A DNA stretch of 64,000 nucleotides. Origin: Streptomyces sp. NBC_00525 (lineage in GTDB: Bacteria > Actinomycetota > Actinomycetes > Streptomycetales > Streptomycetaceae). A program made the position numbers and the translations under genes. The notes below the pieces were generated by a model that had not been told where the DNA came from, searched no databases, and was given only the letters and a program-made list of their open reading frames with translations. Where the stretch lies: assembly GCF_036346595.1 (NCBI RefSeq), contig NZ_CP107834.1, positions 6,014,001 through 6,078,000 on the forward strand, read 5' to 3'. Positions 24,309 through 35,315 of the stretch are shown in pieces; position 1 is the first letter of the stretch; every line of letters begins with the position of its first letter.

Positions 24309-25619
24309 TCAGAAGTCGGCCGCGCTGCCCCGGACGGCGCACGAGCGGCTGTTCTCCCAGCCCCAGCCGTCCCCGTCCGGGTCCGATGAGGCACTGGCGC
24401 AGTACGGGTAGCCGTTCGGCGCGGTACCGCCTGTGTTGCCGCCGCCGGTGTCCGGCGCGCTGCCCCGGACGACGCAGGACCGGCTGTTCTCCCAGCCCCA
24501 GCCGTCCCCGTCCGGGTCGGAGGAAGCGCTCGCGCAGTACGGGTAGCCGTTCGGCGCCGTGCCGGTGTCGCCGCCGCCTTCGTTGCCGCCCGGACCGTCG
24601 CCGTAGACGGTGGCCCGCACGGACGTGGCGGCGATGCCGTTGTCGCCGTGGAACAGCCGCTCGCCCCAGGCGGTCAGCGCGTTCGGGTCGAAGCCGCTCA
24701 CCAGGTCCAGATACTCGACGCCGCCGCCGTTGCCGCTCCACGACCAGCCGAGGTAGCCCAGCCGGAGGGACCGCGCGGTCGCCATGATGGCGTCCTCGTC
24801 GGGGTTGCCGTCGCTGTGCTCGTTCCCGAACTCGCCGACGACGATGGGCAGTCGGTTGTTCACGAAGTGGTTCAGGTAGTCCCGTACCTCGGCGGCCGTG
24901 TCGTAGACCCCGTACATGTGGATGGAGAAGACGGTGTTCCGGTCGGGGTCGGCGGCGAAGACCGACGCGGCGTTGTCCCGCATCGTGCCGGACCAGTCCT
25001 GGCCCCAGTTGGGCGCGTCCACCATCAGGGCGTGCCGCAGACCGGCGGCACGGAGCTTGCCGATGGCGCTCTTCGTCGCTGAAGTCCACTGCGTGTAGGC
25101 GGAGTTGCCGAAGGGCTCGTTGCCGATGTTGACGACGACGTAGTCCTCCTGGCCCACCAGCGCGCTCTTGACGCCGATCCAGTAGTCCGCCGCCCTGTCC
25201 AGCGAGGTGGCGGCGGAGTCCTCGCCGTAGCCGGTGGTGTCGTGCACCTCCAGGACGCAGATGACCTCGGCCGCCTTGCACCGGGCGATGAGCGCGGAGA
25301 CCTCGGACGTGCCGGTCCGCGTCCAGCGGTCGCCGCTGCCGAGGACGACGCGCACGGTGTTGGCGCCCTTGGCGGCGATGTCGGCGATGGCGTCCGTCTG
25401 TTCCGGGTACCAGGCGTGGGCGTGGTTGACGCCGCGCATCACGAACTCGCTGCCGTTCGCCTCGTACAGCCGTCCTTCGCTGACATGGAGGCCCGTTCCG
25501 GCGGTGGTGGCCGCCCGGGCCGCTGCGGCGGGACCCAGGAGGGACAGCAGGGCGGCCGTCATCCCGATGGCCAGCGCGGTCACGGTGGCGAGCAGGGCGC
25601 TGCGGGGTGGTCTCTTCAT
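24309..25619 (-). CDS. Secreted GH5 endo-beta-1,4-mannanase with two CBM10-like repeats
   Basis: 436 aa. A signal peptide (about 1-36, ending AAAARA) precedes a GH5 barrel (about 40-345). Acid/base Glu168 is in VNIGNEP and nucleophile Glu263 in VGEFGNE. The sequence pattern (LHVSEGRLYEANG, MRGVNHAHAWYP) is that of actinobacterial subfamily-8 mannanases. A Gly-rich linker leads to two near-identical units of about 36 residues, each with PYC...DGDGWGWE...SC, like CBM10 cellulose-binding modules. It would cut mannan, glucomannan or galactomannan outside the cell. ATG 25619 has GAGGAG. The operator GACAACGTTGTC lies 40-51 bp upstream of the ATG, indicating control with the rest of the locus. Confidence 0.9.
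   Translation of the reverse strand: MKRPPRSALLATVTALAIGMTAALLSLLGPAAAARAATTAGTGLHVSEGRLYEANGSEFVMRGVNHAHAWYPEQTDAIADIAAKGANTVRVVLGSGDRWTRTGTSEVSALIARCKAAEVICVLEVHDTTGYGEDSAATSLDRAADYWIGVKSALVGQEDYVVVNIGNEPFGNSAYTQWTSATKSAIGKLRAAGLRHALMVDAPNWGQDWSGTMRDNAASVFAADPDRNTVFSIHMYGVYDTAAEVRDYLNHFVNNRLPIVVGEFGNEHSDGNPDEDAIMATARSLRLGYLGWSWSGNGGGVEYLDLVSGFDPNALTAWGERLFHGDNGIAATSVRATVYGDGPGGNEGGGDTGTAPNGYPYCASASSDPDGDGWGWENSRSCVVRGSAPDTGGGNTGGTAPNGYPYCASASSDPDGDGWGWENSRSCAVRGSAADF
24322..24558 (-). repeat. Tandem coding repeat: two CBM10-like units
   Basis: Copies at 24322-24423 and 24457-24558 (period 135 bp) are closely similar in DNA and encode modules that differ at very few residues, for example SCVVRGS versus SCAVRGS. 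The 33-bp linker between them encodes a GGGNTGGT-type spacer. The closeness suggests a recent duplication or ongoing homogenisation. Confidence 0.85.
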
Positions 25620-25658: not shown

Positions 25659-25670
25659 GACAACGTTGTC
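25659..25670. promoter_or_regulatory. Operator 1, GACAACGTTGTC, upstream of the mannanase
   Basis: A perfect 12-bp palindrome with the central CG step typical of LacI-family operators. Read on the minus strand it overlaps TTGACA (25672-25667), a possible -35 box for the mannanase gene. Confidence 0.75.
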
Positions 25671-25899
25671 AACCGTGGTGGGGAGCGGCTGACGGCGGAG
25701 CGGGCTGCGGGGATGCCGGATCGGATGCCCGGCAGGGGATCGGGCCGCGGTGCGATTTTCCGCCCCGGCCCGTTGTCGCCCTCATATGAGGCCCTGAATG
25801 TTCCAGTCATGTCAATAGATGTGTCGCCCGCTCTTCATGTCCCGCCGGTGCGTACCGGGGAATTCACCGCCGCTTTTCTTCGTGGCGCATTGCTAAACC

Positions 25900-25928
25900 T
25901 TTACTGAACTAAACCAAAAGACTAGACA
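25900..25928 (+). promoter_or_regulatory. Candidate promoter of the kinase-manA unit
   Basis: TTTACT (25900-25905), a 17-nt spacer, and TAGACA (25923-25928). The -10 overlaps operator 2, so a bound repressor would occlude it. Confidence 0.45.
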
Positions 25929-25936
25929 ACGTTGTC
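25925..25936. promoter_or_regulatory. Operator 2, GACAACGTTGTC, upstream of the ROK kinase
   Basis: The same perfect palindrome as at 25659, located 61 bp before the kinase ATG and overlapping its candidate -10 box. Confidence 0.75.
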
Positions 25937-25996
25937 ACTGCGCGGCAGAGTACGGCTGGGGAGCGATGCGCGCTCTCCCCGGAAGGGCGGAACACG

Positions 25997-26962
25997 ATGG
26001 TGTACGGAGCACTTGACATCGGCGGGACGAAGATCGCCGGAGCGCTCGTCGACGAGGACGGCCACGTGGTCGTACGGGCCCGGCGCGCCACCCCGGCGCG
26101 ACGGCCGGCCGGGGAACTGGCCGCCGCCGTCACGGCCGTGCAGGACGAACTGGCGGTGCATCCGGCGTGGGCGGACCTCAGCTGCTTCGGCATAGCGAGC
26201 GCGGGCCCGGTGGACGCCGGCGCCGGCACGGTGAGTCCGGTCAACATCCCGGCCTGGCGCGGCTTTCCGCTCGTGGAGCTGGTGCGTACGCATCCGGCGA
26301 CGCCGGCGGGCATCCGGCCCGTGCTCGTCGGGGACGCGGTGGCGATGACCGCCGCCGAACACTGGCGCGGCGCGGCGCGCGGCGTCGCCAACGCCCTGTG
26401 CATGGTGGTCTCCACCGGGGTGGGCGGCGGGCTCGTCCTGGACGGCCGGGTGCACGCGGGCCGCACGGGCAACGCCGGTCACATCGGCCACATCACGGTG
26501 GACCTCGACGGGCCGCTCTGCCCCTGCGGCGCGCCCGGCTGCGTGGAGACCCGTGCCAGCGGCACCGCCATCGCCGCCCACGCCCGCGCCCTCGGCTGGA
26601 CCGCCCCGCCGGGCGTGCGGCCCGACGCCGCCGCGGTCGCCGGCGCGGCCGGGAACGGTGACGCGCGGGCGCGGGCCGCCTTCGACCGCGCCGCACAGGC
26701 CCTGGCCGCCGCGATCGCCGCCACGGCGGCCCTCGTCGAGCTGGACCGCGTGGTCATCGGCGGCGGCGTGGCCCAGGCGGGGGAGACCCTGTTCGCGCCC
26801 CTGCGTCACCACCTGGCGCGCTACGCGGTCCTGGACTTCGTCCGCGGCATACCGGTCCTGCCCGCCGCCCTCGCCCTGGACGCGGGCCTCATCGGCGCGG
26901 CGGCGACGGCGTCCGCCGGCAGGAGCGCGGGAGCGGGGAACGCACCGGCGCTCCTGCCCTGA
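25997..26962 (+). CDS. ROK-family sugar kinase, probable mannokinase
   Basis: 321 aa. The ATP-binding motif DIGGTKIAGAL is at the N terminus. The ROK zinc motif, His plus CPCGAPGCVE, lies near 160-185, and the catalytic Asp is probably in VLVGDAVAMT. ROK kinases phosphorylate glucose, mannose, fructose, allose or N-acetyl sugars. The next gene is mannose-6-phosphate isomerase and the locus degrades mannan, so mannose is the expected substrate; glucokinase or fructokinase activity is the alternative. ATG 25997 has GGAAGG upstream. It forms a two-gene unit with manA (62 bp apart), preceded by operator 2. Confidence 0.87.
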   Translation: MVYGALDIGGTKIAGALVDEDGHVVVRARRATPARRPAGELAAAVTAVQDELAVHPAWADLSCFGIASAGPVDAGAGTVSPVNIPAWRGFPLVELVRTHPATPAGIRPVLVGDAVAMTAAEHWRGAARGVANALCMVVSTGVGGGLVLDGRVHAGRTGNAGHIGHITVDLDGPLCPCGAPGCVETRASGTAIAAHARALGWTAPPGVRPDAAAVAGAAGNGDARARAAFDRAAQALAAAIAATAALVELDRVVIGGGVAQAGETLFAPLRHHLARYAVLDFVRGIPVLPAALALDAGLIGAAATASAGRSAGAGNAPALLP

Positions 26963-27024
26963 CCGGCCCCGTAACCGCCCCGCCGTGCGGGCAGCGCGCC
27001 CGCCGGCCTCGTAAGGAAGTCCTC

Positions 27025-28230
27025 ATGGAACCACTCGTCAACACCGTCCGCTCCTACCCCTGGGGCTCCCTCACCGCCCTGCCCCGGTTCCTGGGCGCCG
27101 AGCCCGACGGGCGCCCGCAGGCCGAGTTGTGGATGGGCGCGCATTCGGGCGCCCCCTCACTGGTCCGGCGCGGCACCGGACTCCGGCCGCTGGACGCCGT
27201 GATCGGGGCGGACCCGGCCGCCGAGCTGGGCGAGGCCGCGCTGCGCCGGTTCGGGGCACGGCTGCCCTTCCTGCTCAAGGTGCTCGCGGCCGGCGCGCCG
27301 CTCTCCCTCCAGGTGCACCCGGACCTGGCGCGGGCCGCGGCCGGCTTCCGGGCCGAGAACGCCGCCGGCATCCCGCTGGACGCCCCGCACCGCAGCTATC
27401 GCGACGACAACCACAAGCCGGAAATGGTCGTCGCGCTGGGCGAGTTCGAGGGGCTGTGCGGCTTCCGTCCGCCGCTGGAGTGCGCCGCGCTGCTGGCCGC
27501 GCTCGGGGTTCCCGAACTCGCGCCGCACTGCCAGATCCTGCGTACGCGGCCCGAGGAGTCCGCCCTGCGCACGGTGTTCGCCGCGTTCCTGGAGCCTCCC
27601 GCTGACCTCGTCGCGGCGGTGGCCGGGGCGGTCGCGCGCGGGGCGCGGGAGGAGGGCCCGCACCGGGCGGACCTGGTGCTGTACGACGCGGTCGCGCGGG
27701 CCTACCCGGGCGATGCCGGACTGCTCGCGGCACTGATGCTGCGGACCGTACGGCTGGCGCCCGGCGAGGGGCTGTTCCTGGGGGCCGGGGTGCCGCACGC
27801 CTATGTGCGGGGCCTGGCGGTCGAGGTCATGGCCGCGTCGGACAACGTGCTGCGCTGCGGCCTGACGGCCAAGCACATGGACCGGGCGGAGCTGCTGCGG
27901 GTGGTGCGGTTCGCCGCCCCGCCCGTACGCGTACTGACGCCGTCGGCGGACGGGCCGGAGGAGGTGTACCCGGCCCCGGTGGACGACTTCCGGCTCTCGC
28001 GGGTACGAGTGGCGGCCGGCGCTCCCGCCGTCGCCCTGGACGCGGCGGCGCCGCAGATCCTGCTCTGCACGCGCGGCGAGGCCCGTCTCGCCGCGGCGGG
28101 CGGCACGCTCACCCTCCGGCCGGGCTCCTCGGCGTACGCGCCGGCGGGGGAGCGGGTGACGGTGGGCGGGGACGGCGAGGTCTACCGCGCCACCGTCGGC
28201 ATCGGCCCCTGCGCGCACTCCGGCGCTTAA
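27025..28230 (+). CDS. manA: Type I mannose-6-phosphate isomerase
   Basis: 401 aa, a zinc-dependent cupin-fold enzyme interconverting mannose-6-phosphate and fructose-6-phosphate. The N-terminal start NTVRSYPWGS and zinc-ligand motif LSLQVHPD near 92-99 are characteristic, and the helical insert and C-terminal cupin are both present. Here it joins the mannan pathway to glycolysis. Streptomyces usually also carries a housekeeping manA near mannose-1-phosphate genes, so this would be a catabolic paralogue; that is inference. ATG 27025 has AAGGAAG upstream. A strong terminator with U-tract follows at 28246-28310. Confidence 0.92.
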   Translation: MEPLVNTVRSYPWGSLTALPRFLGAEPDGRPQAELWMGAHSGAPSLVRRGTGLRPLDAVIGADPAAELGEAALRRFGARLPFLLKVLAAGAPLSLQVHPDLARAAAGFRAENAAGIPLDAPHRSYRDDNHKPEMVVALGEFEGLCGFRPPLECAALLAALGVPELAPHCQILRTRPEESALRTVFAAFLEPPADLVAAVAGAVARGAREEGPHRADLVLYDAVARAYPGDAGLLAALMLRTVRLAPGEGLFLGAGVPHAYVRGLAVEVMAASDNVLRCGLTAKHMDRAELLRVVRFAAPPVRVLTPSADGPEEVYPAPVDDFRLSRVRVAAGAPAVALDAAAPQILLCTRGEARLAAAGGTLTLRPGSSAYAPAGERVTVGGDGEVYRATVGIGPCAHSGA

Positions 28231-28245
28231 CCGGTTTTGTGCAGC

Positions 28246-28316
28246 GCCGCCTCCCTCCGCGTATTCCCTTCCCCTGTTCGAAAGGGGCGGGAAGAGCGGA
28301 GGGAGGCGGCTTTTTC
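28246..28316 (+). terminator. Rho-independent terminator with U-tract after manA
   Basis: A 15-bp perfect outer stem (28246-28260 with 28296-28310) and an imperfect inner stem around GTTCGA are followed by TTTTTCC and more T. It acts on the plus strand, protecting the convergent permease genes. Confidence 0.9.
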
Positions 28317-28330
28317 CTTTTCGTGTTCCG

Positions 28331-29233
28331 TTACTTCGTCGCGCCCTGCGCGAAGCCGTTGTAGATGTAGCGCTGGAGGAACAGGAAGGCGATGAGCGTG
28401 GGGACGATGACGAGGACGGCGCCGGCCGAGATGTTCTCCCAGTGGGCGCCGAACGGCCCCTTGAAGCGGAACAGCGCGGTGGAGACCGTGCCGAGGTCCT
28501 GGGACGGCATGTAGAGGAAGGGGATGTAGAAGTCGTTGTAGACGGTGATCCCCTTGATGATCACCACGGTCGCGATCGCCGGCTTGAGCAGCGGCAGGAT
28601 GATCTTGCGGTAGATCGTGAACGAGTTCGCCCCGTCCAGCCGCGCGGCCTCGTCCAGGGACACCGGGATGCCCCGGATGAACTGCAGGAAGATGTAGATC
28701 GAGACGATGTCCGTACCCATGTAGAGCAGGATCGGCGCCCAGCGGGTGTCGAACAGGCCGAAGCCGTTGACCACCTGGAAGGTGGCGACCTGGGTGGTCA
28801 CGCCGGGCACGAGCGTGGCGACGAGGAACAGCGCCATGACGAGCTTCCTGGCCCGGAAGTGGAAGCGGTCGACGGCGTAGGCCGTCATCGAGCCGATGAG
28901 GACCGTGCCGGTGATCGAGAAGAGCAGGATGAACAGGGTGTTGCCGAACGCGGTGAGCATCCGGCCCTCGGAGAACGCGGTCGCGTAGTTGTCGAAGTTC
29001 AGCCAGTCGCCCGGCAGCGACAGCGCCCCGCCGTCGGCGGCCTCCGCCGAGGTCTTCAGCGAGGTGAGGAAGACGACGGCGAGCGGCAGGATCACCACCA
29101 GCGAGGCGACGACGAGCGACACGTAGACGAGGGTCTGCCCGATCCGGCCGCGCAGGCGGACCCGCCGGGGGCCGGGCAGGGGGCGGGAGCGGCCCGCGGT
29201 CTTCACGGGCGCGGTCCGCTGGGCCGTGGTCAT
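28331..29233 (-). CDS. Carbohydrate ABC transporter permease (MalG type)
   Basis: 300 aa, an inner-membrane permease with six predicted helices. The cytoplasmic EAA loop reads EAARLDGANSFTIYRKIILP, the coupling site for the ATPase. It is the second permease of the importer expected to carry mannooligosaccharides. ATG 29233 overlaps the stop of the first permease by 4 bp (ATGA). No ATPase is encoded here; Streptomyces CUT1 sugar importers generally share the MsiK ATPase encoded elsewhere. The gene ends the minus-strand SBP-permease-permease unit, facing manA tail to tail. Confidence 0.92.
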   Translation of the reverse strand: MTTAQRTAPVKTAGRSRPLPGPRRVRLRGRIGQTLVYVSLVVASLVVILPLAVVFLTSLKTSAEAADGGALSLPGDWLNFDNYATAFSEGRMLTAFGNTLFILLFSITGTVLIGSMTAYAVDRFHFRARKLVMALFLVATLVPGVTTQVATFQVVNGFGLFDTRWAPILLYMGTDIVSIYIFLQFIRGIPVSLDEAARLDGANSFTIYRKIILPLLKPAIATVVIIKGITVYNDFYIPFLYMPSQDLGTVSTALFRFKGPFGAHWENISAGAVLVIVPTLIAFLFLQRYIYNGFAQGATK

Positions 29234-30201
29234 ACGAGGTCCACCTTTTCGTCGGGCACGAGCCGGCGCTGGATCCAGGTGATCAGCAGCACGATCAGCA
29301 GCAGCACCACGGCGGCGGCCGATGCCAGCCCGGTCTTGTTGAACTGGAACGCGAGCTTCACGGTCTGGATGACGAAGGTCGAGGTGCCGGTCGCACCGCC
29401 GGTCATGATCCACGGAATCTCGAACACCGCGAGCGACCCGGAGACCGCGAGGATGACGCTCAGGCTCAGCACGGGCCGGATGCTCGGGGCGATGATGTGC
29501 CGGAACTGGTCCCACTTGGTCGCGCCGTCCAGCTGGGCCGCCTCGTACAGCTCGCCCGGAATGGACTGGATGGCACCGAGGAACAGCACGAAGTTGAGGC
29601 CGGTGTAGCGCCACACCGAGACGCCGGCCAGCGAGGTGTTGGCCGATTCCGGGTCGCCCAGCCAGGCGTGGTCCGGGTCCTGGCCGAACCAGGAGAGCAC
29701 CGTGTCCAGGGTGCCGCCGTCCTGGAAGAAGTACAGGAACACGAAACCGATGGCCACGCCGTTGATGAGGTAGGGGAAGAAGAGCAGCCCCTTGAACAGG
29801 TTCCGGAACCGCAGATCGAAGCTGAGCACGGTGGCGAAGTACAGCGCGATCACGATCTGGAACGCCGAGGCCGCCAGGTAGTAGAAGCTCACGAAGAACA
29901 CCCGGAACAGCTCGGGCCGGGTGAAGATCTGGACGTAGTTGTCCACGCCGGTGAAGTTCCGGTCGGGGCTGATCCCGTCCCAGTCCGTGAAGCTGTAGTA
30001 GAGCATGTTGCCCACGGGCACGTAGGTGAACGTGATCAGCAGGGCCAGCGGCGCCACCAGGAACAGCCAGGGCGTGGCGCGGCGGAGCAGCCGGCCCCGG
30101 CCGCCGCCTGTGCGTGGGCCGGCGCCGGTGGCGGAGGGTCCGCGGCGCTGGGGCGTCGCACGGTGCGTTCTCACGCTCACCGCCTCGGTCGTCTCGGTCA
30201 T
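29230..30201 (-). CDS. Carbohydrate ABC transporter permease (MalF type)
   Basis: 323 aa. After a basic, Arg/Pro-rich cytoplasmic leader of about 40 residues come six membrane segments. The EAA loop is EAAQLDGATKWDQFRHIIAP. It pairs with the downstream MalG-type permease to form the channel. ATG 30201 has GAAAGG upstream, and the gene lies 88 bp after the SBP gene in the same operon. Confidence 0.92.
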   Translation of the reverse strand: MTETTEAVSVRTHRATPQRRGPSATGAGPRTGGGRGRLLRRATPWLFLVAPLALLITFTYVPVGNMLYYSFTDWDGISPDRNFTGVDNYVQIFTRPELFRVFFVSFYYLAASAFQIVIALYFATVLSFDLRFRNLFKGLLFFPYLINGVAIGFVFLYFFQDGGTLDTVLSWFGQDPDHAWLGDPESANTSLAGVSVWRYTGLNFVLFLGAIQSIPGELYEAAQLDGATKWDQFRHIIAPSIRPVLSLSVILAVSGSLAVFEIPWIMTGGATGTSTFVIQTVKLAFQFNKTGLASAAAVVLLLIVLLITWIQRRLVPDEKVDLV

Positions 30202-30289
30202 GTCGGGCCTTTCGTCATCCGCGTCGGTCGTACGGGGTGCGCCGGGCGCGGGCCCCGGCCGGTGTCGTCCGGCCGGGGCCCGCGCCGGT

Positions 30290-31609
30290 TCAGGAGCCGA
30301 TGGTCTTCGCGGCGTCGTCCCACTTCTTGTTCAGCTCGGTGAAGTAGCTCTCGGCGCTGCCCTTCTGCGCGCCGCGCGCGATGTCGACCAGCTTCTGGCG
30401 GTAGTCGGGCTTGTTGAGGCCGATCTCGGCGGCGTTGTCGATGTCGTTGACCGTGCCGGTTTTGGCCTCCGAGCGCTCCACGAAGGTGACATCGTTGTCA
30501 ACGAATTCCTTGAGGGTGTCGGGCATGGGGGCCGACTTAAGGGTGGGCACGGCGCCCTCCTTCACGGAGTAGCCGGACTTCTCCGTGAACCAGTCGATCC
30601 AGGCGCGGGCCGCCTCCTTGTGGTCCGAGTGGATGTTGACGGCCTGCTGGTAGTCCGACACCAGGGTGGAGCACTGCCCCTCCTCGCGCTGGACGGGCAC
30701 CGGCATGTATCCGATGTCGTCGGGGTTGCCGCCCGCCTGCTCGGCGGCGTCCCGCATCTGGCTGATGGCCCAGGAGCCGACCATCATGGAGCCGATCTCG
30801 CCCTTGGCGAGCTTGCTCTTGGACGCCTCCCAGTTGGTGGTGCTCGGGTCCTTCTCGGAGAGCCCGTCCTCGACGATGTCGAACAGCAGGGTGTCGATCA
30901 CGCGCAGCTCGCTGCCGGGCTTCCACGGGGAGACGGGCCCGGCCAGCTTGTTGTTCGCCTCCGCGTCGCACGTGACGGAGCCGATGTTGGCGGACCACTG
31001 GACCAGCGGCCAGCCGTCCTTGAAGTTGGTGTAGTACGGCACGGAGCCGGTCTTCGCCTTGATCGCCTTCAGGTCCGCGAGGAACTCCTCCGGAGAGGCG
31101 GGCCAGTCGGTGATGCCGGCCTTCTTCCAGAGGGCCTTGTTGTAGACGAAGCCGTTGGCGGTGCCGAACTGGGCGATGCCGTAGGTCTTTCCGTTGACCT
31201 CGGACTTGTCGCTGAAGCGGTACTTGTCGGCCATCTCGATGGACGAGCCGAGCGGGGCGAAGAACTTGGGGTAGTCGTTCTTGGCGACCGCGGCCGGGAT
31301 CATCAGGACGTCGCCGTACTCGTCCGTGTTCATCCGGATCTTGACTTCGCCCTCGTAGTCGGTGAGGCCCTCGAACTTCACCTCGATCTTGGGGTAGACC
31401 TTGTTGAACTCCGCCGCGTAGGCCTTCATCGCCCCGTTCTTGATCAGGTCCGTCCGCTGTGTCAGGACCGTGATGGTGCCGCTCGCGCTGCCCGGGTCGG
31501 CCGGGGCCGAGGCCGTCTCCGTGGACGGTGTGCCGCCGCCCCCGCATCCCGTGACGGTCAGTGCCGCGACGGCCAAAAACGTACCTGTGAGTGTCCTGGT
31601 CTTCCCCAT
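30290..31609 (-). CDS. Extracellular sugar-binding lipoprotein of an ABC importer
   Basis: 439 aa. A lipoprotein signal peptide with lipobox VTGC (Cys22) and a Gly/Ser/Thr-rich tether precede a CUT1-type solute-binding domain. It would capture mannooligosaccharides produced by the GH5 mannanase; the ligand is inferred from context. ATG 31609 has GAAGGAG. Codons 370-374 (GTT GAC AAC GAT GTC, 30502-30488) form a one-mismatch copy of the locus operator and use third-position T codons that are uncommon here. It is divergent from the beta-mannosidase gene. Confidence 0.92.
   Translation of the reverse strand: MGKTRTLTGTFLAVAALTVTGCGGGGTPSTETASAPADPGSASGTITVLTQRTDLIKNGAMKAYAAEFNKVYPKIEVKFEGLTDYEGEVKIRMNTDEYGDVLMIPAAVAKNDYPKFFAPLGSSIEMADKYRFSDKSEVNGKTYGIAQFGTANGFVYNKALWKKAGITDWPASPEEFLADLKAIKAKTGSVPYYTNFKDGWPLVQWSANIGSVTCDAEANNKLAGPVSPWKPGSELRVIDTLLFDIVEDGLSEKDPSTTNWEASKSKLAKGEIGSMMVGSWAISQMRDAAEQAGGNPDDIGYMPVPVQREEGQCSTLVSDYQQAVNIHSDHKEAARAWIDWFTEKSGYSVKEGAVPTLKSAPMPDTLKEFVDNDVTFVERSEAKTGTVNDIDNAAEIGLNKPDYRQKLVDIARGAQKGSAESYFTELNKKWDDAAKTIGS
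30488..30499. promoter_or_regulatory. Intragenic near-operator (GACATCGTTGTC) in the SBP gene
   Basis: It differs from GACAACGTTGTC at one base. It lies 1,110 nt into the SBP coding region, almost mirroring the perfect copy 1,170 nt into the divergent mannosidase gene. Confidence 0.5.
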
Positions 31610-31878
31610 GTGCCCTGCTCCTTCGGACGGCGGCTCGGGTCTGTGCCGGATGTCGGCACTATGACAGGAGAGAAGTGAACCGGTAAAGCTCTTGTTTCCC
31701 CTGAGATGCAGAATCGTTACCGGGGTTCACGTTTCCGCAGGTAGAAGGTCGTGTGGTTCTGCGGGCGTGTGACCACATGAGGACTAGACCGGTTTATGGA
31801 CAGAGGTCGATCGACAGGTTAAGTTGTGCCGCGTCGTACATCTGTCACCGTGCGCACTGGGCCGATTGGAGCCGCACC
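31610..31878. promoter_or_regulatory. Divergent promoter region of transporter and mannosidase, with imperfect inverted repeat
   Basis: This 269-bp gene-free region must hold two divergent promoters. The perfect GACAACGTTGTC operator is absent. Instead GTGAACCGGTAA (31675-31686) and TTACCGGGGTTCAC (31717-31730) form an imperfect inverted repeat differing by two extra bases. ACCGGT recurs at 31788-31793, and GTCGATCGAC at 31806-31815 is a palindrome. Any of these might bind a second regulator. The region is noticeably richer in A and T than its surroundings. Confidence 0.5.
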
Positions 31879-34293
31879 ATGAAGGACATCACCCCGCTCA
31901 CCGAAGGCTGGAACCTGCGCTACGACCAAGCGCTGCTGCCGGCCTCGGTACCCGGCTGCGTCCACACCGACCTGCTCGCGGCGGACGTCATCCCCGACCC
32001 CTTCCTCGACCGCAACGAGACCGAGGTCGCCTGGGTCGGCCGACGCGCGTGGACCTACCTCACCGACGTGTCGCACCGGAGCGCGCACGAGCGCACCGAC
32101 CTCGTCTTCGACGGCCTGGACACCGCCGCCCGGATCACTTTCGACGGGCGCGAGCTGGGCACCACCCGCAACATGCACCGCACCCACCGGTTCGACGCCA
32201 CCGGCCTGACCGGCCGGCTGGAGGTGCGGTTCGCCTCCGCGTACGAGGAGGCCGAGGCCGTCCGGGCCCTCACCGGCGACCGGCCCAACGTCTACCCCGA
32301 ACCCTTCCAGTACATCCGCAAGATGGCGTGCTCCTTCGGCTGGGACTGGGGCCCGACGCTCGTCACCGCCGGCATCTGGCGCCCCGTACGCCTGGAGCAC
32401 TGGTCCACCGCGCGCCTCGCCTCCGTCCGCCCCCTCGTCACCGCGGACGGCGCGACCGGGACCGTCGAGGTGCGGCTGCGCGTCGAGCGCACCGCGTCCG
32501 GGGCGGGCGCCGAGCTGCGGGCCCGCGCCACCGTCGCCGGAGCCGAGACGGAGGTCCGCCTCGAGGGCGACGAGGCCGTGCTGCGGCTGACCGCGGACCG
32601 GCCCCGGCTGTGGTGGCCGCGCGGCTACGGCGACCAGCCCCTGTACGACCTCGACATCACCCTGCTCGACGCCACCGGCCCGCTCGACACCTGGCACCGG
32701 CGCATCGGCTTCCGCACCGTCGAGGTGGACCGCGCCCCCGACGAGCACGGCACCGGCTTCACCCTCGTCGTCAACGGCGTCCGCGTGTTCGCCCGGGGCG
32801 TCAACTGGATACCCGACGACGTCTTCCCCTCGCGCGTCACCCCCGAGCGCTACCGCACCCGGCTGCGCCAGGCCGCCGACGCCAACGTGGACCTGGTCCG
32901 CATCTGGGGCGGCGGCATCTACGAGGACGAGGCGTTCTACGACGCCTGCGACGAGCTGGGACTGATGGTGTGGCAGGACTTCCTCTTCGCCTGCGCCGCC
33001 TACCCCGAGGAACAGCCCCTGCGCGGCGAGATCGAGGCCGAGGCCCGCGACAACGTTGTCCGGCTCATGCCGCACCCCAGCCTGGTCCTGTGGAACGGCA
33101 ACAACGAGAACCTCTGGGGCTTCCGCGACTGGGACTGGGAGGAGCCGCTCGCCGGTGACTCCTGGGGCGAGGGCTACTACCTCGGCGTCCTGCCCCGCAT
33201 CGTCGCCGAACTCGACCCCACCCGCGCCTACACCGCCGGCAGCCCCTGGTCCGGCTCCTGGGACCACCACCCCAACGACCCCGCCCACGGCACCCACCAC
33301 TCCTGGGAGGTGTGGAACCGGCAGGACTACGCCGAGTACCGCGCCGACGTGCCCCGGTTCGTCGCCGAGTTCGGCTGGCAGGCGCCCCCCGCGATGGCCA
33401 CCCTCCGCCGCGCCCTGCCCGGCGAGGAACCGGCCGCCGACTCGCCCGGCATGCTCCACCACCAGAAGGCCGAGGACGGCAACGGCAAGCTCGACCGCGG
33501 GATCGCCCGCCACTTCGCCCCGCCCGAGGGCGACTTCGACCGCTGGCACTACCTGACCCAGCTCGTCCAGGCCCGCGCCGTCGCCACCGGCATCGAGCAC
33601 TGGCGCTCCCACTGGCCGGTCTGCGCCGGCACCGTCGTCTGGCAGCTCAACGACTGCTGGCCGGTCAGCTCCTGGGCCGCGATCGACGGCGACGGCCGCC
33701 CCAAGCCGCTCCACCACGAACTGCGCCGGGTGTACGCGGACCGCCTGCTGACCCTGCACCCCGACGGCGACGGCGACGGTGCGGGCGCGGGCGTGGTGCT
33801 CGCGGTGATCAACCAGTCCGCGACGCCCTGGCGCACCGAGGTGACCCTGTCCCGCACCGGGGCGGACGGCGCGCTCAACGGCCGGGAGGTGCGGGAGGTG
33901 ACGGTCGCCGCGCGCTCCGTCGTCCGCCTGGCCGTGCCCGCCGGACTCGTACCGGCCGGCAGCGCCACCGAGTTCCTCGTCGCCGACGCCGAAGGGCTGC
34001 GGGCCACCTGGTTCCCGGTGCCCGACAAGGAGTTCGACTACCCGGAGCCGTCCTTCGACGTGACCGTGGAACCCGCCCCGGACGGCGGTGGTAACGTCCG
34101 CGTGGTGGTCAACGCGCACACCCTCGTCAGGGATCTTCTCCTCCAGGCCGACCGGCTCGACCCCGCTGCCGCGGCCGACCGCGGCCTCGTCACCCTGCTC
34201 CCCGGCGAACAGGCCGTCATCGGGATCGACGGCTGCGGCGACGTGAGCGCCGACGACGTGCGCGCCGCCCTGTTCTGCGTGGGCACGAAGTGA
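31879..34293 (+). CDS. GH2 beta-mannosidase
   Basis: 804 aa, no signal peptide, hence cytoplasmic. An N-terminal sugar-binding jelly-roll (about 1-165), immunoglobulin-like domain and TIM barrel follow the GH2 order. Acid/base Glu410 is in WNGNNEN and nucleophile Glu497 in FVAEFGW; the first helix region GWNLRYDQALLPASVPGCVH is typical of beta-mannosidases rather than beta-galactosidases. It releases mannose from the non-reducing end of imported mannooligosaccharides. ATG 31879 follows GGAG; the frame is open upstream but no family homology is seen there. Codons 391-394 (GAC AAC GTT GTC) are a perfect copy of the locus operator. It is coupled to the LacI gene by a 4-bp overlap. Confidence 0.92.
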   Translation: MKDITPLTEGWNLRYDQALLPASVPGCVHTDLLAADVIPDPFLDRNETEVAWVGRRAWTYLTDVSHRSAHERTDLVFDGLDTAARITFDGRELGTTRNMHRTHRFDATGLTGRLEVRFASAYEEAEAVRALTGDRPNVYPEPFQYIRKMACSFGWDWGPTLVTAGIWRPVRLEHWSTARLASVRPLVTADGATGTVEVRLRVERTASGAGAELRARATVAGAETEVRLEGDEAVLRLTADRPRLWWPRGYGDQPLYDLDITLLDATGPLDTWHRRIGFRTVEVDRAPDEHGTGFTLVVNGVRVFARGVNWIPDDVFPSRVTPERYRTRLRQAADANVDLVRIWGGGIYEDEAFYDACDELGLMVWQDFLFACAAYPEEQPLRGEIEAEARDNVVRLMPHPSLVLWNGNNENLWGFRDWDWEEPLAGDSWGEGYYLGVLPRIVAELDPTRAYTAGSPWSGSWDHHPNDPAHGTHHSWEVWNRQDYAEYRADVPRFVAEFGWQAPPAMATLRRALPGEEPAADSPGMLHHQKAEDGNGKLDRGIARHFAPPEGDFDRWHYLTQLVQARAVATGIEHWRSHWPVCAGTVVWQLNDCWPVSSWAAIDGDGRPKPLHHELRRVYADRLLTLHPDGDGDGAGAGVVLAVINQSATPWRTEVTLSRTGADGALNGREVREVTVAARSVVRLAVPAGLVPAGSATEFLVADAEGLRATWFPVPDKEFDYPEPSFDVTVEPAPDGGGNVRVVVNAHTLVRDLLLQADRLDPAAAADRGLVTLLPGEQAVIGIDGCGDVSADDVRAALFCVGTK
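33049..33060. promoter_or_regulatory. Intragenic operator GACAACGTTGTC in the mannosidase gene
   Basis: A perfect palindrome falling exactly on codon boundaries for Asp-Asn-Val-Val. The GTT valine codon is uncommon in this DNA, which suggests selection on the site rather than on the protein alone. Confidence 0.55.
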
Positions 34294-35315
34294 CCGCTCC
34301 GGCTCGCGTCACGATCAAGGACGTCGCCGCGCGGGCCGGTGTGTCCAAGGGGGCCGTCTCGCTCGCCTTCAACGGCAAGCCGGGCGTCTCGGACGCGACG
34401 CGGGAACGCATCTTCCAGGTGGCGCGGGAGCTGGGCTGGGAGCCCAACCGCACGGCGCGCAGCCTCTCCGGCCGCAGCGCCGACATCATCGGGCTGGTGC
34501 TGAACCGCCCGGCCCGGCTCCTCGGCCTGGAACCGTTCTACATGGACTTCATCTCGGGCATCGAGAGCGTTCTGGCGGAGCGGTCCTGCTCGCTGCTGCT
34601 GCGACTGGTCCGCGACGTGGACGAGGAGATCGAGCTGTACCGGGCGTGGTGGCGCGGCCAGACCATCGCGGGCGCCGTCCTCGTCGACTTCCGGTCGGAC
34701 GATCCGCGCGTGCCCGCGCTGGAGGCCGTGGGGCTGCCCGCGGTCGCCGTCGGCCATCCGTCGCTGACCGGGTCCTTCCCCGCGGTGTGGACCGACGACG
34801 CCACGGCCACGGCGGAGGCCGTCCGCTATCTGGCCGCCCTCGGGCACCGGCGCCTCGCGCGCGTCGGGGGCCCGGCCGGCTTCGGGCACAGCGCGATCCG
34901 CACACGCGCCTTCGAGGCCACGGTGCGGGAACTGGGCCTCGAACACGGCACCCAGATCGCGACCGGGTTCGACGAGCGGGAGGGCGCCCGGGCGACGCGC
35001 TCGCTGCTCCTGGCGAAGGACCGGCCCACCGCGATCGTCTACGACAACGACATCATGGCGGTGGCCGGCGCGGGCGTCGCCGCCGAGATGGGCTTCGTGG
35101 TCCCGGACGACGTCTCGCTGCTGGCGTGGGACGACTCCCAGCTGTGCCGGATCACCCATCCCACCCTGTCCGCGATGAGCCACGACATCCACCACTTCGG
35201 CGCGGAGGTCGCGCGGACCCTGTTCACGCTGATCGAGGGCACCCACCCCGGTGACCTCCAGGTGCCGACCCCGTCGCTCACGCCCAGGGGCTCGACGGCA
35301 CCGGCGCCGCAGTGA
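34290..35315 (+). CDS. LacI-family repressor of the mannan locus
   Basis: 341 aa. An N-terminal LacI HTH (VTIKDVAARAGVSKGAVSLAFNG, about 7-29) and hinge helix are followed by a periplasmic-binding-protein-like effector domain. GTG 34290 overlaps the mannosidase stop (GTGA), so regulator and enzyme are made together. The palindromes GACAACGTTGTC near the mannanase, kinase, SBP and mannosidase genes are the best candidate operators, and mannobiose or another mannooligosaccharide is the likely inducer. Both points are inference from context. A strong bidirectional hairpin follows at 35322-35357. Confidence 0.9.
   Translation: MTAPARVTIKDVAARAGVSKGAVSLAFNGKPGVSDATRERIFQVARELGWEPNRTARSLSGRSADIIGLVLNRPARLLGLEPFYMDFISGIESVLAERSCSLLLRLVRDVDEEIELYRAWWRGQTIAGAVLVDFRSDDPRVPALEAVGLPAVAVGHPSLTGSFPAVWTDDATATAEAVRYLAALGHRRLARVGGPAGFGHSAIRTRAFEATVRELGLEHGTQIATGFDEREGARATRSLLLAKDRPTAIVYDNDIMAVAGAGVAAEMGFVVPDDVSLLAWDDSQLCRITHPTLSAMSHDIHHFGAEVARTLFTLIEGTHPGDLQVPTPSLTPRGSTAPAPQ

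Follow-up and report, generated by a model that had tools for sequence, protein, structure and literature searches.

A 12-bp palindrome, GACAACGTTGTC, recurs across a mannan locus of Streptomyces sp. NBC_00525, with copies both in front of genes and deep inside them, which raises the question of which regulator reads it and whether the copies inside genes are operators at all. The locus lies in a 64-kb stretch of contig NZ_CP107834.1 (64,000 nucleotides, positions 6,014,001 to 6,078,000; hereafter "the window"), and includes a LacI-family gene that seems the obvious candidate. Genome comparison points elsewhere, to a distant LacI-family gene that we name ManR. We consider it highly probable that the palindrome is the operator of ManR, used in this locus at two promoter-proximal and two intragenic sites, and that the local LacI-family regulator is a separate switch.

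The palindrome is exact at 25659-25670, 25925-25936 and 33049-33060, with a one-mismatch copy at 30488-30499, and a scan of the window returned no further copy with 0 or 1 mismatch, in agreement on each point with the initial annotation of this DNA. Its estimate that about 0.004 exact copies would be expected by chance was likewise sound (0.0038 with uniform bases, 0.0015 under a first-order Markov model, the window being 74% GC), and with up to two mismatches the window holds 8 matches, where shuffled sequence averages 1.57 and 0 of 100 shuffles attain 8. A scan of the entire 7.1-Mb genome, suggested at the time as a check, confirmed that the motif is rare, with 4 exact sites against 0 for a reversed control. 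The fourth exact site lies outside the window, at C1:480831, so the proposed restriction of the palindrome to the mannan locus holds for the window and fails for the genome. When one mismatch is allowed, the genome contains 20 sites against 7 for the control; a lone one-mismatch match is thus not rare genome-wide, and the copy at 30488 requires separate proof. Across 121 genomes of the genus, 398 exact sites were found in 109 genomes, compared to 25 control sites.

The copy at C1:480831 sits in the gap between a ROK kinase gene and the divergent ManR gene, whose product carries an N-terminal LacI helix-turn-helix and a periplasmic-binding-like sugar domain (Pfam). A palindromic site with a central CG is found adjoining the regulator's own gene. 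Orthologs of ManR (E <= 1e-80) were detected in 112 of the 121 genus genomes at 75-100% identity, with the next paralogs at most 54% identical, and the exact palindrome lies shortly upstream of ManR in 101 of these 112, which provides the conservation at orthologous loci that had been named as a further check. This total combines 95 exact sites, 42-261 bp before the start of the match, among 106 upstream stretches read (1 other stretch, in G076, has a one-mismatch copy and 10 have none) with six genomes in which coordinates place an exact site just upstream of ManR (G022, G026, G033, G096, G099, and G119). Among named relatives (the best 80 of 493, all from records titled Streptomyces), the exact palindrome was found 52-162 bp upstream of ManR in 80 of 80.

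Within the mannan locus, the GH5- and ROK-proximal copies resemble ordinary promoter operators. Orthologs of the ROK gene (n = 22 including our own, from 392 genomes) have an exact upstream site in 19 cases, a one-mismatch site in 1 (G313), and none in 2 (G205 and G218). For GH5, the exact upstream site is present in 4 loci (our own, G116, G015, and G119; L125-L128), which are the closest by identity among the 30 compared, and was not found in G048 (L129) or in the more distant GH5 loci of this set, in which the locus of G017 is cut by a contig end. The more distant GH5 genes of G105 and G047 carry an exact palindrome internally (L145:2275 and L148:2191), over a peptide DNVV, and this copy may perhaps be another intragenic operator. 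We also observed that the two ROK kinases, from the mannan locus and from beside ManR (25997-26962 and L001:474-1430), are about 62% identical, and that both lie behind the same palindrome.

The two other copies lie more than 1 kb inside genes, each at a distance of 1.1-1.2 kb from a divergent promoter located between them: one is in a GH2 gene, whose product would be a beta-mannosidase judging by its context, and the other is in the gene for an ABC solute-binding protein (SBP). In GH2, the exact palindrome is written with the codons GAC AAC GTT GTC (peptide DNVV), and the SBP site reads GTT GAC AAC GAT GTC on the minus strand (peptide DNDV). The Val codon GTT is rare, representing 1.4% of Val codons in a 29-locus set and 2.5% in a 34-locus set. 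In six motif-bearing loci, the GH2 Val column was the sole shared rare codon among 351 one-amino-acid columns; since these loci had been picked for carrying the motif, this first codon test was biased, and it was repeated without that choice, first on a 29-row alignment (results given below) and then on the 34-locus set, which consists of the 30 GH2 loci with the highest protein scores (L270-L299, drawn from 123 genomes with matches out of 392) plus L157, L158, L164, and L173. The exact GH2 12-mer is present in 25 of these 34 loci (own included), with neighbouring codons drifting, and at a 6% codon threshold the GTT column is the top rare-codon column of 927 (26 of 34 rows; next 18). The SBP GTT column similarly ranks first of 443 (24 rows; next 7), with GACAACGATGTC found in 28 of the 30 rows having the column and TT preceding it in 26 of 30. 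By log-likelihood, the DNVV window ranks 1 of 318 in GH2 across L270-L299 and the SBP windows rank 1 and 2 of 75. Of these 30 loci, 24 have the GH2 site, and all 24 also carry the SBP site, 2559-2638 bp away. When the GH2 rows are restricted to 11 with pairwise identities below 82%, the exact GH2 site is retained in 7, and GACAACGATGTC in all 9 that have SBP. A perfect palindrome would call for Val at a position where the SBP peptide requires Asp, so the SBP copy is probably about the best site that the protein allows. On these alignments, both intragenic sites are conserved beyond protein need, at the codon level.

The palindrome-ManR pair appears to be the SsManR system of Streptomyces sp. 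SirexAA-E. In that strain, Ohashi et al. 2021 (doi 10.1128/AEM.02719-20) reportedly described a 12-bp palindrome at four places, two of them before alpha-1,2-mannosidase genes, read by a regulator, SsManR, which is said to be released by mannose or mannobiose. The SirexAA-E genome (NC_015953.1) encodes a ManR ortholog (L340), 91% identical and with the exact palindrome upstream, which we take to be SsManR, with the published motif letters presumed to match those here. We found five exact sites there rather than four, namely at ManR/ROK, at a clear GH92 gene (L380), at a weak GH92 gene (L382, N-terminal match below cut-off and gene cut by the locus end), at a ThuA-GSDH gene (L383), and beside DUF3626; in contrast to the locus studied here, none of the five is at a GH5 or GH2 gene (Pfam, flanking genes within 1.5 kb). 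A set of 30 motif-centred loci from relatives (L005-L034) comprises 12 adjoining the ManR-side ROK gene, 1 GH2 site, and 17 others, 15 of which had their flanking proteins scanned. These include a GH92 match in five (L012, L023, L027, L028, below the cut-off in L028, and L034), a ThuA-GSDH protein in four (L006, L011, L021, and L026), and otherwise GH26, GH43, transporter binding proteins, a LacI-permease pair, and less clear genes. Since start codons are unsettled in the motif-centred loci, these sites are near 5' ends and not proven upstream. The exact palindrome recurs near the 5' end of the ThuA-GSDH gene in L383 and the four loci above, and in L383, L011, and L021 a multicopper oxidase gene flanks it on the opposite side. 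The ThuA-GSDH gene is a possible target of ManR, with no clear link to mannose.

Several of the results weigh against the assignment to ManR or against the intragenic operators. Ten genomes keep ManR with no exact palindrome upstream of it or anywhere in the genome (L219, L231, L242, L241, L225, L227, L222, L214, L228, and L211), the GH5-upstream site is limited to 4 of 30 GH5 loci, and some sites elsewhere are near genes without a clear mannose link (ThuA-GSDH, DUF3626, and GH43). In its family tree the GH2 site occurs in one part only (25 of 52 rows), and when windows are ranked simply by their plain fraction of identical 12-mers, its window comes no higher than 22 of 318. In the scan of all columns of the 29-row alignment, its GTT column tied for second place at a 3% codon threshold and for sixth at 5%, and did not stand out at 10%.

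The alternative that survives best is that only the intergenic pair are operators, the intragenic copies being coding coincidences that arise through protein constraint and shared ancestry. Both copies do lie in conserved peptides, near matches are not scarce in the genome (the 20 sites above), and the GH2 site has the modest plain-fraction rank just given. The GH2 site is also clustered: on a tree quickly built from 52 GH2 proteins, its presence in 25 rows takes a minimum of 5 changes, of which 3 are imposed by well-supported branches, against a shuffled mean of 17.7. Shared ancestry thus adds to its conservation, and the argument becomes one of codon drift inside the clade, not of repeated origin. 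On that argument, coincidence is at odds with a rare GTT codon kept in 25 of 34 GH2 loci amid drifting neighbours, with GACAACGATGTC kept in nearly all SBP rows, with the persistence of both sites in the rows below 82% identity, and with the top log-likelihood windows in both genes. We reject it for 33049 and 30488 on the codon-column and window-ranking results, and regard the alternative as a whole as improbable.

A reading of the palindrome by a third LacI-family protein, rather than by ManR, could be proposed from the ten palindrome-less genomes, where the ManR helix is unchanged. A site shortly upstream of ManR in 101 of 112 genomes, together with the 12 of 30 motif-centred loci next to the ManR-side ROK gene, makes such a protein very unlikely. 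As for the ten genomes themselves, a changed recognition helix is ruled out as the cause, the helix sequence being identical, and no obvious replacement operator was seen among the matches listed from a one-mismatch scan. The divergent neighbour of ManR in these genomes, judged by eye and not searched, looks unlike ROK.

The initial annotation had instead proposed the neighbouring LacI-family regulator (34290-35315) as the reader, and its locus does hold three of the four exact genomic copies. A search with this local LacI gave matches in 88 of 121 genomes at E <= 1e-60 (best group 63-91% identity), and 29 orthologous loci were compared, some cut by contig ends. Most of these retain the neighbouring GH2 and transporter genes, and the exact palindrome is present in 7, either upstream of the ROK gene (L156, L157, L158, and L160), inside GH2 at one same position (L155, L158, L160, L161, and L171), or near the GH5 end (L161), which leaves 22 of 29 without it. 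The local LacI is 30% identical to ManR, and their recognition helix sequences differ. Its loci share another element: of 28 GH2-bearing loci, 27 carry ACCGGT within the 330 bp preceding GH2 (two or more copies in 22; GH2 is truncated in the 28th, L175), against a background of 0.51 per kb, and all 34 loci of a second set that overlaps with the first contain the word AACCGGTAA. The pattern CTNNACCGGTTYA occurs at 8 places in the genome, including 31676-31688 and 31784-31796, which are 108 bp apart in the SBP/GH2 divergent promoter, and these ACCGGT-centred sites are likely the local LacI's own operators. The annotation's view of the palindrome as a LacI-family operator code is supported; its choice of regulator is not borne out, the local LacI being probably the wrong one, and we attach very little credence to it as reader. 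A plasmid search using the local LacI gave nothing informative.

Finally, it is hardly credible that another kind of signal at these bases (an internal promoter, an RNA element, or translation pausing) accounts for the conserved codons in SBP and GH2. Rare codons can mark several kinds of signal, but the GH2 string is letter-identical to the operator upstream of ManR, and the SBP string is one base off it and preceded by TT in 26 of 30 rows.

The association of site and regulator and the codon-level conservation of both intragenic sites come from comparison, and we infer the binding, effector, roadblock, and enzyme substrates in the following scheme. ManR dimers would bind at 25659 (before GH5), 25925 (before ROK and the isomerase), 30488 (in SBP), and 33049 (in GH2). 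Without mannose or a manno-oligosaccharide, ManR would block initiation at 25659 and 25925, and at 30488 and 33049 it would most likely block elongation as a roadblock, which is our first choice. Sugar would then release ManR, and the local LacI would act as a second, separate switch at the ACCGGT sites of the SBP/GH2 divergent promoter. The effector may be mannose or mannobiose, going by the title of Ohashi 2021 and by what that study reportedly found. LacI roadblocks are known (PMC4132739). A loop over the divergent promoter is possible; ManR residues 17-334 align with lac repressor residues 5-326, and on this alignment ManR, which ends 9 residues past the aligned core, has no room for an E. 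coli LacI-type C-terminal tetramerisation helix.

An extension of this scheme, tentative and on balance doubtful, is that the intragenic ManR pair forms a two-sided clamp bracketing the SBP/GH2 promoter, either as a 2.6-kb repression loop or as twin roadblocks. A distant mannose sensor would then override the local LacI, and both signals would be needed for expression of the transporter and the beta-mannosidase. One hint is the joint presence of both sites in the 24 loci noted above. Another comes from G075, G228, and G082, in which no SBP gene was found beside GH2 and the exact GH2 site is absent; the flank seen spans just 1.5 kb in G075 (which has a one-mismatch site) and G228, and the GH2 of G082 looks frame-shifted. 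A loop is disfavoured by the lack of a tetramerisation helix, and by G086, G048, and G312, which keep GACAACGATGTC in SBP without the GH2 site.

In E. coli, GalR and LacI have internal operators in galE and lacZ, where one internal operator and a promoter operator lie about 100-400 bp apart, whereas the arrangement proposed here has two internal operators 2.56-2.64 kb apart, flanking a divergent promoter, and a regulator encoded elsewhere. For E. coli gal and lac, repressors of the LacI family that have an operator within a structural gene are described (PMC4693257 and PMC3711431). Within Streptomyces, CebR is presented as a LacI-family repressor with a palindrome, TGGGAGCGCTCCCA, at several loci (PMC4898821 and PMC4890002), and is said to bind both inside the thaxtomin cluster and upstream of it. 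CebR and ManR are thus both LacI-family regulators with one palindrome for several loci, but differ in palindrome and ligand.

The features of the locus are collected in Table 1. Between the convergent isomerase and permease genes, a long G+C-rich inverted repeat with T-rich DNA beside it was seen by eye at 28240-28320, and has the look of a terminator shared by the two. Another ACCGGT-type word, TTAACCGGTTTT, lies at 28226-28239, at the isomerase stop codon and before the transporter genes.

Table 1 Genes and putative operators of the mannan locus, and the distant ManR gene
Feature	Position	Strand	Characteristics
GH5 glycoside hydrolase, two CBM10 stretches	24309..25619	-	Pfam Cellulase (GH5), CBM_10; presumed mannanase from context
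ManR operator 1 (putative)	25659..25670		exact palindrome; 40-51 bp upstream of GH5 start
ManR operator 2 (putative)	25925..25936		exact palindrome; ~60 bp upstream of ROK kinase start
ROK-family sugar kinase	25997..26962	+	Pfam ROK
Mannose-6-phosphate isomerase class I	27025..28230	+	Pfam PMI_typeI_cat; NCBIfam manA above cut-off
ABC sugar permease 2	28331..29233	-	Pfam BPD_transp_1 in longer open reading frame 28331-29614; start 29233 from sequence
ABC sugar permease 1	29230..30201	-	Pfam BPD_transp_1
ABC solute-binding protein (SBP) gene holding operator 3	30290..31609	-	Pfam SBP_bac_1
ManR operator 3 (putative)	30488..30501	-	one mismatch, TTGACAACGATGTC on - strand; inside SBP gene
Putative operator A of local LacI	31676..31688	-	CTTTACCGGTTCA, ACCGGT-centred
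Putative operator B of local LacI	31784..31796	+	CTAGACCGGTTTA, ACCGGT-centred
GH2 glycoside hydrolase holding operator 4	31879..34293	+	Pfam Glyco_hydro_2_N2, Glyco_hydro_2; start 31879 chosen from sequence
ManR operator 4 (putative)	33049..33060	+	exact palindrome; GH2 codons with rare Val codon GTT
Local LacI-family regulator	34290..35315	+	Pfam LacI; probably not palindrome reader
ManR	C1:480937-481968		343 aa; LacI-family, outside window; Pfam PF00356, PF00532, PF13377

The palindrome-regulator pair is not new as such, having reportedly been published for SirexAA-E. No paper on the palindrome letters or motif was among the literature matches listed, and a literature search on the theme of intragenic operators found no paper on them; as far as the matches listed show, what is new is the reassignment of the palindrome to ManR at the mannan locus, and the codon-level evidence for an intragenic operator pair bracketing a divergent promoter. 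Proximity is misleading in assigning LacI-family operators, since the owner of this palindrome appears to be encoded far away, and the locus appears to be under two overlapping LacI-type switches that use different codes. The locus also adds a case of regulatory DNA inside coding sequence, held by rare-codon choice in a high-GC genome, of a kind that promoter-only motif scans miss. Taken together, these results yield a two-input model for mannan use in Streptomyces, testable with a few silent changes.

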